IMG/VR virus record: IMGVR_UViG_3300007072_000041
Span: 1-24,475 of that record
Source of the DNA: a virus
DNA length: 24,475 nucleotides
Direction: 5' to 3' (one strand)
Position numbers and translations under genes: made by a program. The notes below the pieces were generated by a model, which was not told the DNA's origin, did not search any database, and worked only from the letters and a program-made list of their open reading frames with translations. Positions 2,824 to 9,002 of this stretch are shown piece after piece; position 1 is the first letter of the stretch, and every line of letters begins with the position of its first letter.

Positions 2824-2837
<14 letters not shown>
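2325..2837 (+). CDS. DUF2924 family protein
   Basis: The protein has 170 residues with the DUF2924 pattern: an N-terminal helical part resembling 'REEHRKVFGKEPASSHRQFL' (about 21-40), then a small beta-rich C-terminal part with 'RDPRLPMPGG' near 107-116 and 'ITGTKWNGLLFFGL' near 148-161. The C-terminal half, with 'GRFAYNDRRYTSLSAIA', looks like a small DNA- or protein-binding module. DUF2924 genes are commonly found directly upstream of serine recombinases, as here, where the reading frames overlap by 14 bases. The biochemical function is not known; an accessory role to the recombinase is a reasonable inference. Confidence 0.85.
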
Positions 2838-4383
<1,546 letters not shown>

Positions 4384-4391
4384 ATGCGACC

Positions 4392-4844
4392 ATGACACGG
4401 TTCGAGGTGAAGACGACGTTGCCGCATCGGGTGCGGCAGATCAGCCGCCCCGAAAGGCAGCCACCGGCGGGAGTCGAGGCGGCGCCCCGGCCTGGCCGAC
4501 CGATCCGGGCGGCGCAGGTGCTGGCGCTGGCGCTTCAGTTTCAGGAGATGATCGACCGCGGCGAAGTGCGCGATTACGCCGACTTGGCGCGCCTGGGATG
4601 CGTGAGCCGGGAGCGGATCAGCCAGATCATGATGCTCGTCTGGCTCGCGCCGGATATCCAGGAAGCCGTGCTGCGCTTGCCGCCTCACTGCGGGCGCGCG
4701 CCCTTCAGCGAAACGGCGTTGCGGCGAATTGCCAAGATCGTGCACTGGGACAAGCAAAGACAGGAGTGGCAGCGACTTACGGTCTATCCGAAACCGTTGG
4801 CCGATTTCCACAACGATCCACAAGGCGAAACCTGTCAAGCCTGA
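4392..4844 (+). CDS. Helix-turn-helix protein linked to the recombinase
   Basis: The protein has 150 residues. A helix-turn-helix is visible around 58-80, where 'DYADLARLGCVSRERISQIM' has the turn and recognition-helix pattern of a DNA-binding protein. The N-terminal 40 residues are basic and Pro-rich. The gene starts eight bases after the recombinase stop, so it belongs to the same operon. Proteins like this are often found directly downstream of DUF2924-associated recombinases. It could be a directionality factor or a repressor of the recombinase, but nothing in the sequence decides which. The ATG at 4392 has no strong Shine-Dalgarno and may be coupled. Confidence 0.75.
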   Translation: MTRFEVKTTLPHRVRQISRPERQPPAGVEAAPRPGRPIRAAQVLALALQFQEMIDRGEVRDYADLARLGCVSRERISQIMMLVWLAPDIQEAVLRLPPHCGRAPFSETALRRIAKIVHWDKQRQEWQRLTVYPKPLADFHNDPQGETCQA

Positions 4845-4896: not shown

Positions 4897-4912
4897 GCCA
4901 TGATAAAATGGC
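4897..4912 (+). promoter_or_regulatory. Extended -10 promoter inside an inverted repeat
   Basis: TGATAAAAT (4901-4909) fits the extended -10 pattern TGnTAnAAT, and it is enclosed by GCCAT (4897-4901) and ATGGC (4908-4912). A regulator bound to the inverted repeat would block the promoter. No good -35 box is present, as is usual for extended -10 promoters. AGCGTTTTT follows twice, at 4922-4930 and 4935-4943. The promoter would drive the two unknown genes at 5049 and 6190 with a leader of about 130 bases. The rest of 4845-5048 shows nothing further. Confidence 0.4.
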
Positions 4913-5048: not shown

Positions 5049-6206
5049 ATGCAGTACAACGCCAAGGCCGTCCTCCGGCTCATCCCCAACGAAACACTGG
5101 CCCGGTTGTTCGCTCCCTACCCTGGCTTCGCGGACTTTGACTGGAATGCCGGCTCCAAAGGAACCGCCGATCGCATTTTCGAGCGCTGGCAAACAATGGG
5201 CGACGGCGACGTCCGCGCCGTGGGGCGCATCCTGCGCCAGGTCCATTGCCTGGCCACGCCGCGCGGCACGCGGGCGCTGATCGAAGCCGGGCGGGATCAG
5301 GGGCTGGACCTGGCCGAAGAACTCGCCGCGCTCGGCAATGCCCACGAACGCGCGCTTGCCTGCTATCTCGATCACCCCAAAGTCTTCAACGCCGCGCGGA
5401 TTCTCGATCACATCGAAGGTCTGAGGCGCACCTCGTGGGAGAAGCGCAACGGCTTCCCAAAGCAGGATCTCGCCTCGCCCGACGCCACCAGGGAGCAGCT
5501 TGGCCCACGCATCGGAGATTACTACCGCGCCCGTGATGGCCGTGGCTCGCCGTGCAAGGTCGAGCACCAGAAGCGCAGCAACGGCAGCCACTGGTTCTTC
5601 GCCTACCCGGCCGATTACGAAGACGAGGTTCTTGGCTACGACGAATCGGGAGAGCTGGGCCGGCGGCCCTGGAGCAAGGCCTTCGAAGTGGTCTTCATCT
5701 ACGACGGCGGGGCGGGGACCATTGATCTCTATGCGCAGGGCGGACGCGCGGTGCGCGACGAGTTGACGGGCATCTTCACGGAGGCCGCATTCGGCCAAGC
5801 CCAGGAATCCGAGCCGTGGAAGCCGGCGCCATACAATCTCGATCTCTTCAAGAACTCCTATGTCAAGTTGCCAACGAAGCCCGAACATCACATCACCTCT
5901 GTCCGCGTGAAGGCGCTCCGCTTCGATGTGCATGGGGCTGATAGCGGAACGATTACGGTCGATATCGGGCGATCCCACAAGCCCGTGTACGAGTTGATCC
6001 GGGCGCACCTGGCCGAGCAGACGGCAACGCTGGCGAACGTGACCATTCGCGAGGTGAGTCTGCAGGCGATCTTCGAGCCGCCCGGCAAGCGCAAGCGCAC
6101 TTTGACTTTCGAGATCACGCCGACGCACTGCAATCTGGACGACTCGGACGAGGCGGATATTCTTCGGGGATATCTCAAGGAGTGGACGATTGAGGCCTCC
6201 GGCTGA
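5049..6206 (+). CDS. Unknown protein A of a two-gene unit
   Basis: I do not recognise a named family for this protein of 385 residues. The N-terminal third is helical (about 1-135, with 'LRLIPNETLARLF' and Ala/Leu-rich helices). The middle third has 'HWFFAYPADYEDEVLGYDESG' (about 178-198) and then alternating strands 'AFEVVFIYDGGAGTIDLYAQGG'. The C-terminal third has regular strand patterns ('ITSVRVKALRF') and ends in a basic, beta-rich tail. No signal peptide, membrane segment or nuclease motif is visible. GAGGGA at 5034-5039 serves either the ATG at 5049 or a GTG at 5046. The next gene overlaps it by 17 bases, so the two are translated together. The pair lies between an integrase cassette and phage replication genes, where accessory or defence genes are often found. 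Whether it defends the host or serves the phage is unknown. Confidence 0.75.
   Translation: MQYNAKAVLRLIPNETLARLFAPYPGFADFDWNAGSKGTADRIFERWQTMGDGDVRAVGRILRQVHCLATPRGTRALIEAGRDQGLDLAEELAALGNAHERALACYLDHPKVFNAARILDHIEGLRRTSWEKRNGFPKQDLASPDATREQLGPRIGDYYRARDGRGSPCKVEHQKRSNGSHWFFAYPADYEDEVLGYDESGELGRRPWSKAFEVVFIYDGGAGTIDLYAQGGRAVRDELTGIFTEAAFGQAQESEPWKPAPYNLDLFKNSYVKLPTKPEHHITSVRVKALRFDVHGADSGTITVDIGRSHKPVYELIRAHLAEQTATLANVTIREVSLQAIFEPPGKRKRTLTFEITPTHCNLDDSDEADILRGYLKEWTIEASG
6177..6182 (+). promoter_or_regulatory. Shine-Dalgarno deciding a TTG start
   Basis: AAGGAG lies seven bases before TTG at 6190 inside the end of the preceding gene. No ATG or GTG in that frame is as well placed, so this site is what supports the TTG start and the 17-base overlap. 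Confidence 0.6.
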
Positions 6207-7656
6207 ACTCTGGCGTGCGGTCGTGCGCCGGTGCGCCTCAGGAGAGCGGGTGTTCTGCTTCGACGAAGTGCGAGAGTGGCCGCGGGAGCGCTTCGAGCAA
6301 CTGGTGGAGATGGGCATCCTGCGGGAAGGGCCGCTCGCCGCCTCCGTGGTGTGTGATGCCTGCGGGGGGATGCACCGTGAAGACGTGCTGTGGGAGCCAA
6401 GCGTGCGAGACCTTCTGGGCAAGCGAGCCTACATCCGCTGCCCGGACGAGGGTCCGGTGCATGTCCCGGAAATCCGTCTGCGGCAGTGGGTCGTCGATGG
6501 CGGCGTGATTGCCAAGGGACTCGCTGCGGCGATGGCCCTTTCGGGAACGATTGAAGAGGTCTTGTCCGGGAAGGTGTGGAAACTCGGGCGGCGGCGCCTG
6601 GCAGGCCGGTTCCGCGACGTGTTCCTGTCGATGAACGTGGCCGGCGAGTACGCGAGGATCACGGACGCCGCCACGCGACATCTGGCCGCCAAGGACGGAA
6701 TTCTGCTCGCCGGACAGCCCTCCCTTCATGACGGCAGTCTGGACCGGTTCACCGTCCTCGACTTGGCTGAAGTCGTGGAACTCGGCGAGGACGGACTCAC
6801 GGTGGATCTCGACTACATCGAAGACGCCCTCCCCAGGGACCGGGCCATCAAAGAGGATAAGATCCGCAGCTTGCCCATCCCGGAAGGGACTGCTTGGCCG
6901 GAGATAACGCTGGAGCCCGGCGAGTCGTCGCTGCGGGTTCTCGCGCGAGGCCAGTCATGGGAGATCGATCCGGAAGAGGCAGGCTTCGCCGATTCCCGGC
7001 GGAAAACGGGAGAAAGTGACAGACCATATCAGATCCTGCACCTCTTCGCCCTACGCAGGGGCCGCCTGACTATGGAAGAGGTCAAGGGCTGGGATCCCAT
7101 GACCAGAGAGGACCGTTTTCGCAAGCAGATCAGCAATCTCAGAAAGAGGCTCGGGAGCCTGCTCGCCGCCGAAGGCGAGTCGATTCGCTGGGATGCGGAC
7201 GAAGAAGCCTACACGTGCTGTTTCAAGATCCGGCGCGCGGGGGACACGGACCTCCCGCTGCCTTCCGACGGTTCGTGGATGAGCTACCAGATCATCGAGC
7301 GCCGCGATGGCCGCATTGCTGTGGGCGTCAAAGCGAATCTGATTCGACGCTCCCGGGATGTCCGTACGGGCGAGACCGGCACGGCCGAACATCACGAAAC
7401 ACTCTGGCAGGAGCATTCGCTGGTGGATCTGGGGCTCGCTCGGGACGTAGACCGGCTGTTACCAGAAGGCCAAACCCTGGTTGAACTGCTGCGTTCGGGC
7501 GGGCGGCTCGTGCGGGCCGGTGACGACATGGCCATCCTGAAACTCAACCGGTGGCTCCGTGAGCAGACCGGCCTGGACGGCAATCCTCTCCAGTTCAGCG
7601 AAGCGACCGGGGCCTGGATCGCCGCTTTCGACTGCTCCTCGGAGCGCCGCCGGTAG
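6190..7656 (+). CDS. Unknown protein B: zinc-knuckle plus winged-helix protein
   Basis: The protein has 488 residues from the TTG start. Near residue 56 it has 'VCDACGGMH', followed by a single Cys in 'IRCPDEG' (about 81-87), a C-C-H-C set that could bind zinc. The preceding 50 residues look like a small winged helix ('FDEVREWPRERFEQLVEMGIL'). Around residues 275-350, 'LHLFALRRGRLTMEEV' and 'FRKQISNLRKRLGSLLAAEGESIRW' followed by 'EAYTCCF' resemble the C-terminal DNA-binding domain of OmpR/SARP-type regulators. The C-terminal 130 residues match nothing I know. No enzymatic motif is visible, so a DNA-binding or sensor-regulator role with protein A is the best inference. Its stop precedes the twin palindromes by 12 bases, and these could be its own or its neighbour's operator. 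Confidence 0.75.
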   Translation: MRPPAELWRAVVRRCASGERVFCFDEVREWPRERFEQLVEMGILREGPLAASVVCDACGGMHREDVLWEPSVRDLLGKRAYIRCPDEGPVHVPEIRLRQWVVDGGVIAKGLAAAMALSGTIEEVLSGKVWKLGRRRLAGRFRDVFLSMNVAGEYARITDAATRHLAAKDGILLAGQPSLHDGSLDRFTVLDLAEVVELGEDGLTVDLDYIEDALPRDRAIKEDKIRSLPIPEGTAWPEITLEPGESSLRVLARGQSWEIDPEEAGFADSRRKTGESDRPYQILHLFALRRGRLTMEEVKGWDPMTREDRFRKQISNLRKRLGSLLAAEGESIRWDADEEAYTCCFKIRRAGDTDLPLPSDGSWMSYQIIERRDGRIAVGVKANLIRRSRDVRTGETGTAEHHETLWQEHSLVDLGLARDVDRLLPEGQTLVELLRSGGRLVRAGDDMAILKLNRWLREQTGLDGNPLQFSEATGAWIAAFDCSSERRR

Positions 7657-7668
7657 CCGAGCGGGTCG

Positions 7669-7686
7669 CCGTGGAATTTTCCACGG
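7669..7686. repeat. 18-bp inverted repeat, copy 1
   Basis: CCGTGGAATTTTCCACGG has 8-bp arms (CCGTGGAA/TTCCACGG) around TT. It starts 12 bases after the stop of the preceding gene and is identical to the copy at 7776-7793. It could act as an operator or as a hairpin; no T-run follows beyond the central T's. Confidence 0.75.
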
Positions 7687-7775: not shown

Positions 7776-7793
7776 CCGTGGAATTTTCCACGG
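7776..7793. repeat. 18-bp inverted repeat, copy 2
   Basis: Exact copy of 7669-7686, with starts 107 bp apart, about ten helical turns, which would place both on one face of the DNA. It ends 19 bases before the first gene of the replication polycistron. The pair brackets the only A/T-richer stretch in this gap, where a promoter would lie, and so suggests repression by looping. Confidence 0.75.
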
Positions 7794-7812: not shown

Positions 7813-8145
7813 ATGAGCACCTTACCCTCTGCCACCAACCCAACGGTCCCGCCGGCGGCCGCTGCTGCTAACGCCGGTCCTCCGGCCAACGTGGAATCCC
7901 TCGTGCGCGAGGCGCTGGCCGACGTGGCGCTTGTCATCGGCAGCGCCGCCGCCCTGCACCAGCTTGATGACGATCTGGTGTGGACGGTGATGAAGCGGCT
8001 GGACCGCATCCGTGTCCGGCTGCTCCGCGAACTGAAAGGTCTCGCCCCGCGCGAGGAGTATGAACCGGGCGGAGCGCGCCCGCCGCGCATTCACGCCGCC
8101 GTGGACGAATTCCTCGTGCGCAACCGCGCCGGGATGGGGGAGTAG
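7813..8145 (+). CDS. Small hypothetical protein, first gene of the replication polycistron
   Basis: A 110-residue protein of unknown function. The first 25 residues are Pro/Ala-rich and probably disordered. Residues 28-75 look like two amphipathic helices ('VESLVREALADVALVIGSA' and 'VWTVMKRLDRIRVRLLREL'). AGAGG upstream (near 7801-7805) gives a reasonable ribosome site. It begins just after the second inverted repeat and is followed after three bases by the next gene. Nothing in it points to an enzyme; a small helical adaptor or regulatory protein is possible. Confidence 0.65.
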   Translation: MSTLPSATNPTVPPAAAAANAGPPANVESLVREALADVALVIGSAAALHQLDDDLVWTVMKRLDRIRVRLLRELKGLAPREEYEPGGARPPRIHAAVDEFLVRNRAGMGE

Positions 8146-8148
8146 GCC

Positions 8149-8478
8149 ATGCAGTTCGCCGACCTCTCTCCCTCCTGGCAGCGCCTGCTGCGCCTGTTCC
8201 AGACGATCCACTTCGGACGCGTCGAAGAACTCGAAATCCGCAACGGCGAGCCCGTGTTCAGCCCGGAGCCGCGAGTCTTCCTCGAGTTGAAACTCGATGC
8301 CGCCGACGGCCCGCGGCCGGAAGTCCGGCTCGGCAACTTCGAACTGCGCAGCCAGGTCGAGCGGTTCATCCAGCAGATCCGGCGGTTCAACAACGGCACG
8401 GTGGAGCGCATCGAGGTGCGCCACGGCCTTCCCTTCCGGATGGTGATCGAGGCGATGCCCGCGGAGGTGGAGCCATGA
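8149..8478 (+). CDS. Small protein with an internal duplication
   Basis: A 109-residue protein with no family that I recognise with confidence. It has two similar halves: 'FGRVEELEIRNGEPV' (about 22-36) and 'NGTVERIEVRHGLPF' (about 82-96), each preceded by a short helix ending in Ile/Phe. The repeated G-x-V-E-x-(I/L)-E-x-R-x-G-x-P unit resembles the short beta-hairpin of YezD/DUF2292-type proteins, though that link is only a resemblance. A run of Gs and GAG precedes the ATG. The stop overlaps the sigma-like gene start by four bases, so the two are coupled. Confidence 0.65.
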   Translation: MQFADLSPSWQRLLRLFQTIHFGRVEELEIRNGEPVFSPEPRVFLELKLDAADGPRPEVRLGNFELRSQVERFIQQIRRFNNGTVERIEVRHGLPFRMVIEAMPAEVEP

Positions 8479-9002
8479 GCGCCGCCGCCATCGACGCCCT
8501 TGTCCTCAGGCAGGCCGGGATCCGGGCCAGCCGCATCGTGGGCGCCACCGGCTACACGCGCGACGACTGGGAAGACCTACGGCAGGAACTGCTTCTCGAT
8601 TTTGTCCGCCGGCAACCCCGGTTTGATCCGGCGCGCGGAGATCAGCGCGGTTTCGTCTTCGGAGTTCTTCGCAACCATGCGGCGAAACTTGCGAGGGCAG
8701 GATTCCGCGCCGAAATCGCCAGCGAACTTCCCGACGAGGCGTGCGAACTCTGTGGCAGCGCAACCACAGACGTGGAGGCAAAACTTCATCTCCGTATCGA
8801 CGTCCAAACGGTTCTTTCGCGCCTGCCGGAGCATCTTCGCATCCTCGCCATTCAGTTGACGGAGATGAGCCCGGGCGAGGTGTGCCGGGAGTCGGGCCGG
8901 TCACGGTCCTGCATTTACCGGTGGATTGCCGAACTGCGCTGCGCCTTCATGGCGGCCGGCCTCACGCCGGCTGTCCTGGCCAGCCGGGGAGGCGCGCGGT
9001 GA
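8475..9002 (+). CDS. Sigma-70-family (ECF-like) factor
   Basis: The protein has 175 residues. Residues about 31-75 fit sigma region 2 ('DDWEDLRQELLLDFVRR', then 'GFVFGVLRNHAAKLAR'), and residues about 115-157 fit region 4 ('LSRLPEHLRILAIQ', then 'SPGEVCRESGRSRSCIYRWI'), with a helix-turn-helix at the end. The 40-residue linker contains 'CELC'. ECF-like factors direct RNA polymerase to alternative promoters; in phage elements they can time late gene expression. GGAGG (8463-8467) precedes the ATG. The ParB-like gene starts inside its stop (GTGA). It may instead be a degenerate sigma-like DNA-binding protein. The target promoters cannot be identified here. Confidence 0.75.
   Translation: MSAAAIDALVLRQAGIRASRIVGATGYTRDDWEDLRQELLLDFVRRQPRFDPARGDQRGFVFGVLRNHAAKLARAGFRAEIASELPDEACELCGSATTDVEAKLHLRIDVQTVLSRLPEHLRILAIQLTEMSPGEVCRESGRSRSCIYRWIAELRCAFMAAGLTPAVLASRGGAR

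Follow-up and report, generated by a model that had tools for sequence, protein, structure and literature searches.

An overlapping gene pair of temperate phages, P1-P2, as a possible Rex-like lysogeny-switch module with a predicted DNA-binding partner in the place of RexB

We analyzed two adjoining genes, here called P1 and P2, in the viral record IMGVR_UViG_3300007072_000041, the whole 24,475-base stretch of which is referred to as the window (W in lists of loci). All coordinates are those of this stretch; relative loci carry the prefix L and genomes the prefix G. An earlier reading made from the letters of the DNA (the sequence-only reading) had described two coupled genes of 385 and 488 residues with a 17-base overlap, the second starting at a TTG with a Shine-Dalgarno sequence seven bases away. 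Both open reading frames (ORFs) were recovered, along with their signals:

5049..6206, plus strand: P1, 385 amino acids from an ATG
6190..7656, plus strand: P2, 488 amino acids from a TTG
6177..6182, plus strand: Shine-Dalgarno sequence AAGGAG of P2, seven bases before the TTG at 6190, conserved in relatives
4901..4909, plus strand: extended -10 promoter element TGATAAAAT, kept as TGnTA(A/G)AAT in six relatives

The pattern 'CTCAAGGAGTGGAC[GA]A TTG' at the start of P2 was common to all five close relatives, and the P2 N-terminus read from the TTG at 6190 aligned with the N-terminus in distant relatives. When the window was compared with its relatives, the ratio of nonsynonymous to synonymous substitution rates (dN/dS) was 0.10-0.16 for P1 and 0.22-0.28 for P2, and on account of these low values we consider both to be real genes. 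The ratios point to purifying selection on both genes, looser on P2. The pair had also been credited with its own promoter inside an inverted repeat. The promoter is credible because the extended -10 element was kept in the relatives; the repeat that surrounds it (4897-4912) was broken in three of the six and is not credible. No terminators or sigma-70 promoters were found near the pair by consensus scan.

Relatives were collected by viral and genome scans, which gave five and then ten viral plus nine genome relatives. The next gene after P1 was P2 in about 33 loci with continuing sequence, spanning Planctomycetota, Acidobacteriota, Verrucomicrobiota and others, and the two genes mostly overlapped by 4 or 8 bases. 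The P2 gene of L013, missed by the gene caller, was recovered by tblastn; the clear exception to the pairing was L012, in which P1 is truncated. Profile searches of sampled genomes detected P1 in 12 of 246 Planctomycetota genomes, in 3 of 247 from the phylum of an Acidobacteriota genome and in 9 of 237 from the phylum of G006, an uncultured proteobacterium. A profile of the N-terminal part of P2 also matched 12 of the 246 Planctomycetota genomes, and 10 of these were shared with P1 (about 0.6 expected if the two were independent). Rare co-occurrence, which the sequence-only reading had named as grounds for giving up the idea of a system, is therefore excluded by the gene order across these loci together with the ten shared genomes. 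A divergent second P1 lineage in L035, L037 and L038 adjoined a P2-like gene and lay divergent to a serine integrase. The P1-P2 pair is old.

Some loci departed from the usual picture. In the phylum of G006, four loci (L060, L061, L062 and L022) carried the pair within another conserved gene set of about 358, 205 and 165 amino acids, followed in three of the four by a sigma-54 type activator. The 205- and 165-residue genes were scanned and had no Pfam family; the set with the pair is perhaps another kind of mobile element. Decaying copies were also seen, with P1 as two ORFs in L072 and with an early in-frame stop in L019.

The pair had been placed in a cargo position beside an integrase, a view that did not survive the comparison of the window with its own phage group, in which P1 was 88-91% and P2 74-79% identical and the pair was present in every member (the record of L016 ends inside P1). 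The variable cargo sits just upstream of P1:

4845..5048, plus strand: P1 leader; cargo slot that varies within the phage group and is empty in the window; relatives' inserts lie between the 4380-4844 gene and P1

This slot was empty in the window, L003 and L014; L002 and L015 had a PIN-domain toxin with a small partner there, and L016 a cassette of a cytosine methylase (m5C), DUF4928 and Vsr. Because the pair is constant in the group while the upstream slot varies, we regard the pair as part of the phage core and not as cargo. Neither P1 nor P2 matched a PADLOC model at E<=1. Of the regulated accessory system suggested at first, a regulated and co-occurring two-gene unit thus stands, with lysogeny control among its options, but its status as cargo does not, and no match to a defence family was found. 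Upstream of P1 in other loci we observed Cas9-Cas1-Cas2 (L056), a PLD-helicase (L069) and genes for type I restriction (L065, L070), and the DNA just 5' of P1 is a spot in which defence genes repeatedly come to lie.

In eleven relatives P1 lay, by position, next to the lysogeny repressor, with a LexA/S24-type or M78/ImmA-like gene directly upstream of it. In seven of them (L004, L005, L006, L010, L013, L018 and L019) it was a LexA/S24-type repressor gene on the same strand, assigned by Pfam in L004 (S24 5e-33, LexA_DNA_bind 1e-19) and by blastp family in the other six. The gaps between repressor and P1 were 8-26 bases as called, and about 3 bases in L019 when measured from the true P1 start, P1 having been called there from an internal start. 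In L054, L064, L065 and L067 an ImmA-like gene directly preceded P1, with an Xre helix-turn-helix (HTH) protein before it in the family; this assignment was tested on L064 (Peptidase_M78 8e-10, HTH_3 2e-9). Both designs, LexA/S24 and ImmR with an ImmA-like protein, are common among the repressors of temperate elements. By analogy with lambda, the relatives have a layout like that of cI-rexA, and there is about an even chance that P1-P2 is a core module of the lysogeny region in a broad group of temperate phages.

P1 is a member of phrog_37634 (E 3e-22, residues 29-381 of 385), a family without name or function. The first impression that the proteins belong to no known family was accordingly correct as regards Pfam, NCBIfam and PADLOC, none of which holds a family matching P1 or P2, and is amended by the PHROG membership and the predicted fold of P1. 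No match to P1 or P2 was obtained by tblastn in 50,697 named phages, and PDB sequence profiles searched from both alignments gave only noise. An AlphaFold2 model of P1 built on a 35-sequence alignment (pLDDT, the predicted local distance difference test score, 84.7) contained the helical half and the beta-rich half anticipated from the sequence: a helical N-terminal part (residues 1-123), a globular domain with seven strands and a pair of long helices (about 124-259), and a C-terminal domain in which two helices accompany four strands (about 260-385). In a Foldseek search the best twelve matches of P1 were Iml3/CENP-L or CENP-N, bar one unrelated chain (prob 0.23), with Iml3 on top (E 8e-4, prob 0.99). 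VIA-align matched P1 to CENP-L at Z 7.6, which is below the VIA comfort line of Z 8 (219 residues, 4.9 A, model residues 74-385), to CENP-N at Z 7.4 (190 residues, 5.7 A) and to RdgC 2owl at Z 7.2 (207 residues, 6.0 A, model residues 124-385); single-domain TBP-like matches followed the CENP-L/N and RdgC rows, which headed the list at Z 7.0-7.6. A search of viral models returned the RdgC of phage JS26 at prob 0.85. These model comparisons suggest that P1 probably has a fold of the RexA/RdgC/CENP-L/N class. As RdgC ties within 1 Z unit, no special kinship of P1 with the CENP proteins is shown.

The AlphaFold2 model of P2 (pLDDT 87.2) has an N-terminal zinc domain, a middle alpha/beta domain and two tandem winged-helix domains resembling OmpR and CadC:

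6352..6441, plus strand: predicted zinc site of P2 (C55, C58, H62, C84), from conservation in 29 homologues
6877..7245, plus strand: P2 winged helix, copy 1 (about residues 230-352); VIA, CadC 5ju7 at Z 7.7 over 93 residues, 2.8 A
7258..7638, plus strand: P2 winged helix, copy 2 (about residues 357-483); match to copy 1 by hhalign, 93%, E 3e-7

The C-C-H-C set noted in the sequence-only reading is predicted to be a zinc site because C55, C58 and C84 were kept in more than 90% of the 29 homologues and position 62 was H or C. The OmpR/SARP-like domain noted there turned out to be present in two tandem copies. For residues 239-353, VIA returned CadC and BaeR (Z 7.7, 2.8-3.1 A), then PhoP and VanR, and the first eleven rows for copy 1 were all of OmpR/PhoB type (Z 6.7-7.7, 84-93 residues, 2.5-3.2 A). 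No Pfam family, including the OmpR/PhoB-type profile, matched P2 at E<=1, and no PHROG matched it above noise. The best 19-residue hydropathy of P2 was 1.36, with no clear membrane segment, and the model is that of a soluble protein. In other loci, read by eye from the sequences, the N-terminal part of P2 was retained while the C-terminal part was a single winged helix in L022, L059-L062 and L066 and consisted of unrelated HTH-like sequence in L009, L064, L065, L067, L068 and L070. A constant N-terminal part with exchanged C-terminal parts is as expected of a sequence-specific DNA-binding protein that shifts its target and keeps its partner contact. The middle domain (residues 103-219; 6496-6846) resembled PD-(D/E)XK-type folds, namely EndoMS and the nuclease domain of Can2 (Z 6.0-6.3); it lacks a conserved D/E-x-K and we do not claim it as a nuclease.

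A gap of 156 bases separates P2 from the early operon, and after P2 we found two operator-like near-palindromes:

7669..7686, plus strand: operator-like near-palindrome CCGTGGAATTTTCCACGG, copy 1, 18 bases
7776..7793, plus strand: identical copy 2 of CCGTGGAATTTTCCACGG, 107 bases from copy 1, start to start

Allowing three mismatches brought out no further copy of CCGTGGAATTTTCCACGG in the window (0.04 expected by chance). Both copies and their 107-base spacing were kept in W, L002, L003, L014 and L015, which are all the group phages covering the region. The core GGAATTTTCC was unchanged in all ten copies, and the outer arm positions varied without compensation, for which reason we take the near-palindromes to be a putative site on DNA and not the arms of an RNA stem. 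In other groups the region after P2 held other weak palindromes or none.

The closest known parallel is the cI-rexA-rexB region of lambda. The crystal structure of lambda RexA showed that it shares the RdgC/IML3/CHL4 fold, with a seven-stranded globular domain and a four-stranded dimerisation domain; RexA, which is co-transcribed with cI, binds DNA as a dimer without sequence specificity and, with no need of RexB, tips the CI-Cro switch towards lysis (Adams et al. 2024, PMC11077077). The strand counts of RexA (PF15969, phrog_12654) match those of the two domains in the P1 model, P1 in the relatives is likewise the first of two genes beside a lysogeny repressor, and both sides are temperate phages with integrases. 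The P1 model differs from RexA by the extra helical N-terminal part (1-123), and neither RexA nor its relatives Sbash gp30 and CarolAnn gp44 match it in sequence. RexB has four transmembrane helices, whereas P2 is, by prediction, of a zinc and winged-helix DNA-binding type with a soluble alpha/beta model. RdgC (PF04381), a ring-shaped DNA-binding dimer, resembles the P1 model in its two-domain fold; in E. coli it is a stand-alone chromosomal protein, unlike P1 with its nearly constant partner P2. The eukaryotic inner-kinetochore proteins CENP-L/Iml3 and CENP-N/Chl4 are the best structural matches of the P1 model and have no sequence similarity to P1; in CENP-N, as in that model, a helical part precedes the beta domains. 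In its model P2 shares the winged helix of OmpR/PhoB and CadC/ToxR proteins, but it has no receiver or membrane part and carries two tandem copies behind a zinc domain, and other P2 proteins carry an unrelated HTH. By prediction, then, the fold of P1 is of the RexA class, and in many relatives the gene stands where rexA does.

In pursuing this parallel, we propose that P1-P2 could act on the lysogeny switch as a Rex-like module in which a DNA-binding protein replaces RexB, a reading to which we give about an even chance. The proposal builds on the pair and its overlap, its co-occurrence, its position after the repressor in relatives, the exchange of P2 domains and the operator-like sites. P1 would be a clamp of RexA/RdgC type that grips DNA with little sequence preference; we infer that its C-terminal domain would pair two monomers, with the globular domains and the helical N-terminal parts lining a cavity. 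P2 would be made from the message of P1 through translational coupling and would bind P1 via its invariant, zinc-containing N-terminal part. The exchangeable C-terminal domains of P2 may then read specific DNA and so place the clamp at the control sites of the phage, for which the near-palindrome pair before the early operon is the candidate. The P1-P2 complex bound there may favor or stabilise one state of the lysis-lysogeny switch.

Several results weigh against this proposal. No LexA or ImmR-like relative was found beside the pair in the window's group, the records of which are incomplete, nor was such a gene present in the 37.9-kb record of L002, likewise incomplete. The near-palindromes were clear only in the window's group and absent after P2 from some others. 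The domains of P1 do not have a basic net charge. The fold of P1 is held to be probable and no firmer because Z 7-8, a range that VIA calls common, is also reached by unrelated folds, and the solved RexA 8TWQ was not among the best 50 VIA rows for P1. Sequence comparison of P1 with the RexA, RdgC and CENP families gave no signal: PF15969 and phrog_12654 did not match P1 in Pfam and PHROGs at E<=1, PF15969 matched none of the 35 P1 proteins in Pfam (lambda RexA as control, 1e-97), PF04381 was matched by no P1 member, and hhalign of P1 with E. coli RdgC gave 0.1%. Profile-profile comparison of P1 with lambda RexA, the RexA-like proteins of CarolAnn and Sbash and E. coli RdgC was also without signal; since the accepted pair of lambda RexA and CarolAnn gp44 failed in the same way, this comparison is blind here and cannot decide kinship. 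DUF4747 (PF15931), a literature link between RexA proteins, went unmatched in 96 genomes and equally in the control genomes, which makes its absence uninformative.

The same observations were considered under other explanations. The predicted RexA-like fold and the repressor-linked position could also suit a prophage defence pair for superinfection exclusion following the logic of RexAB, in which P1 would detect the DNA of an infecting phage, or intermediates of replication, and the cell would be stopped by P2 or by a host factor under its control. RexA-like proteins of Sbash and CarolAnn and the RexAB of P. putida exclude phages, and Cas9-Cas1-Cas2, type I restriction-modification, PLD-helicase, methylase-Vsr and PIN genes lie just upstream of P1. 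However, RexB as the known effector is a membrane protein of four helices, whereas P2 looks DNA-binding without a clear membrane segment, PADLOC gave no match, and the pair is core while the adjoining defence cargo varies, so that we rate defence as a fairly unlikely role. It is also unlikely, and a little more so, that the pair is a replication or recombination module, with P2 binding the phage origin and an RdgC-like P1 clamping DNA to modulate RecA or fork restart. RdgC is among the best structural matches of P1, and the pair directly precedes a replication/recombination operon with Sak4, a PD-(D/E)XK nuclease and RecD2, before which the two fixed-spacing sites lie; yet the pair in relatives is joined to the repressor gene (8-26 bases) and mostly stands 100-240 bases from the replication genes, and no iteron array was found.

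The absence from the window group of any LexA or ImmR relative, the tandem winged helices and the operator-like sites directly after P2 might instead mean that P2 is itself the repressor of this phage group, with P1 as a co-repressor or a chaperone that senses induction. We find this improbable, as L004 and L018 have the same tandem-winged-helix P2 and also carry a LexA/S24 repressor, and the records of the window's group are incomplete. We hold a further suggestion about the family to be just as doubtful, namely that P1 represents a large unrecognised phage branch of the RexA/RdgC/CENP-L/N fold, nearer in architecture to CENP-N/Chl4 than RexA and RdgC are, by virtue of a helical N-terminal part in front of two beta domains, whose clamp would be loaded at chosen sites by an interchangeable P2.

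The window is taken as a prophage that begins, on the left, with host sequence; there we identified tRNA-Pro (578-655), tRNA-Gln (966-1039) and, by eye, a Fic/Doc-like ORF at 1623. The position of the pair between an integrase and phage replication genes, as first described, was confirmed on both sides by Pfam and PHROG matches:

2824..4383, plus strand: serine integrase, left neighbor (Resolvase, Recombinase and zinc ribbon; PF00239 9e-38, PF07508, PF13408; phrog_95 integrase 1e-126)
4380..4844, plus strand: small HTH-like protein after the integrase, outside the pair (phrog_14161 'recombinase', 1.4e-16)
7813..8145, plus strand: first gene of the early operon downstream of the pair

The early operon continues with a conserved protein (8149), a sigma-like protein (8475), a ParB-like protein (8999), a PD-(D/E)XK nuclease (10445), Sak4 (11488) and a RecD2-like helicase (13147). 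The 4380-4844 gene was kept in W, L002, L003, L014, L015 and L016. Directly 5' of the integrase lies a DUF2924 protein with a weak RAMA match (2325-2837), also found in the group relatives covering the region and in L013. Members of the family of the small sigma-like protein (8475-9002) lie two to four genes beyond P1 in many loci, and between close relatives the protein diverges strongly, with 50% identity in L003 against 82-87% in L002 and L015.

Seventy years after its discovery, the role of lambda rex, in defence or in control of the switch, is still debated. If the Rex-like reading of P1-P2 is true, a widespread family combining a RexA-like fold, and often a RexA-like gene position, with a sequence-specific DNA-binding partner instead of a membrane effector would allow the two roles to be told apart and the switch role to be tested directly. 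Two genes met again and again in phages of Planctomycetota, Acidobacteriota, Verrucomicrobiota and others would thereby gain names and a mechanism, and the RdgC/CENP-L/CENP-N fold would gain a phage branch. Should P1 further prove to be a clamp branch of this fold, mobile elements would become a candidate source of the inner-kinetochore module, and a sequence-directed Rex system would be defined.

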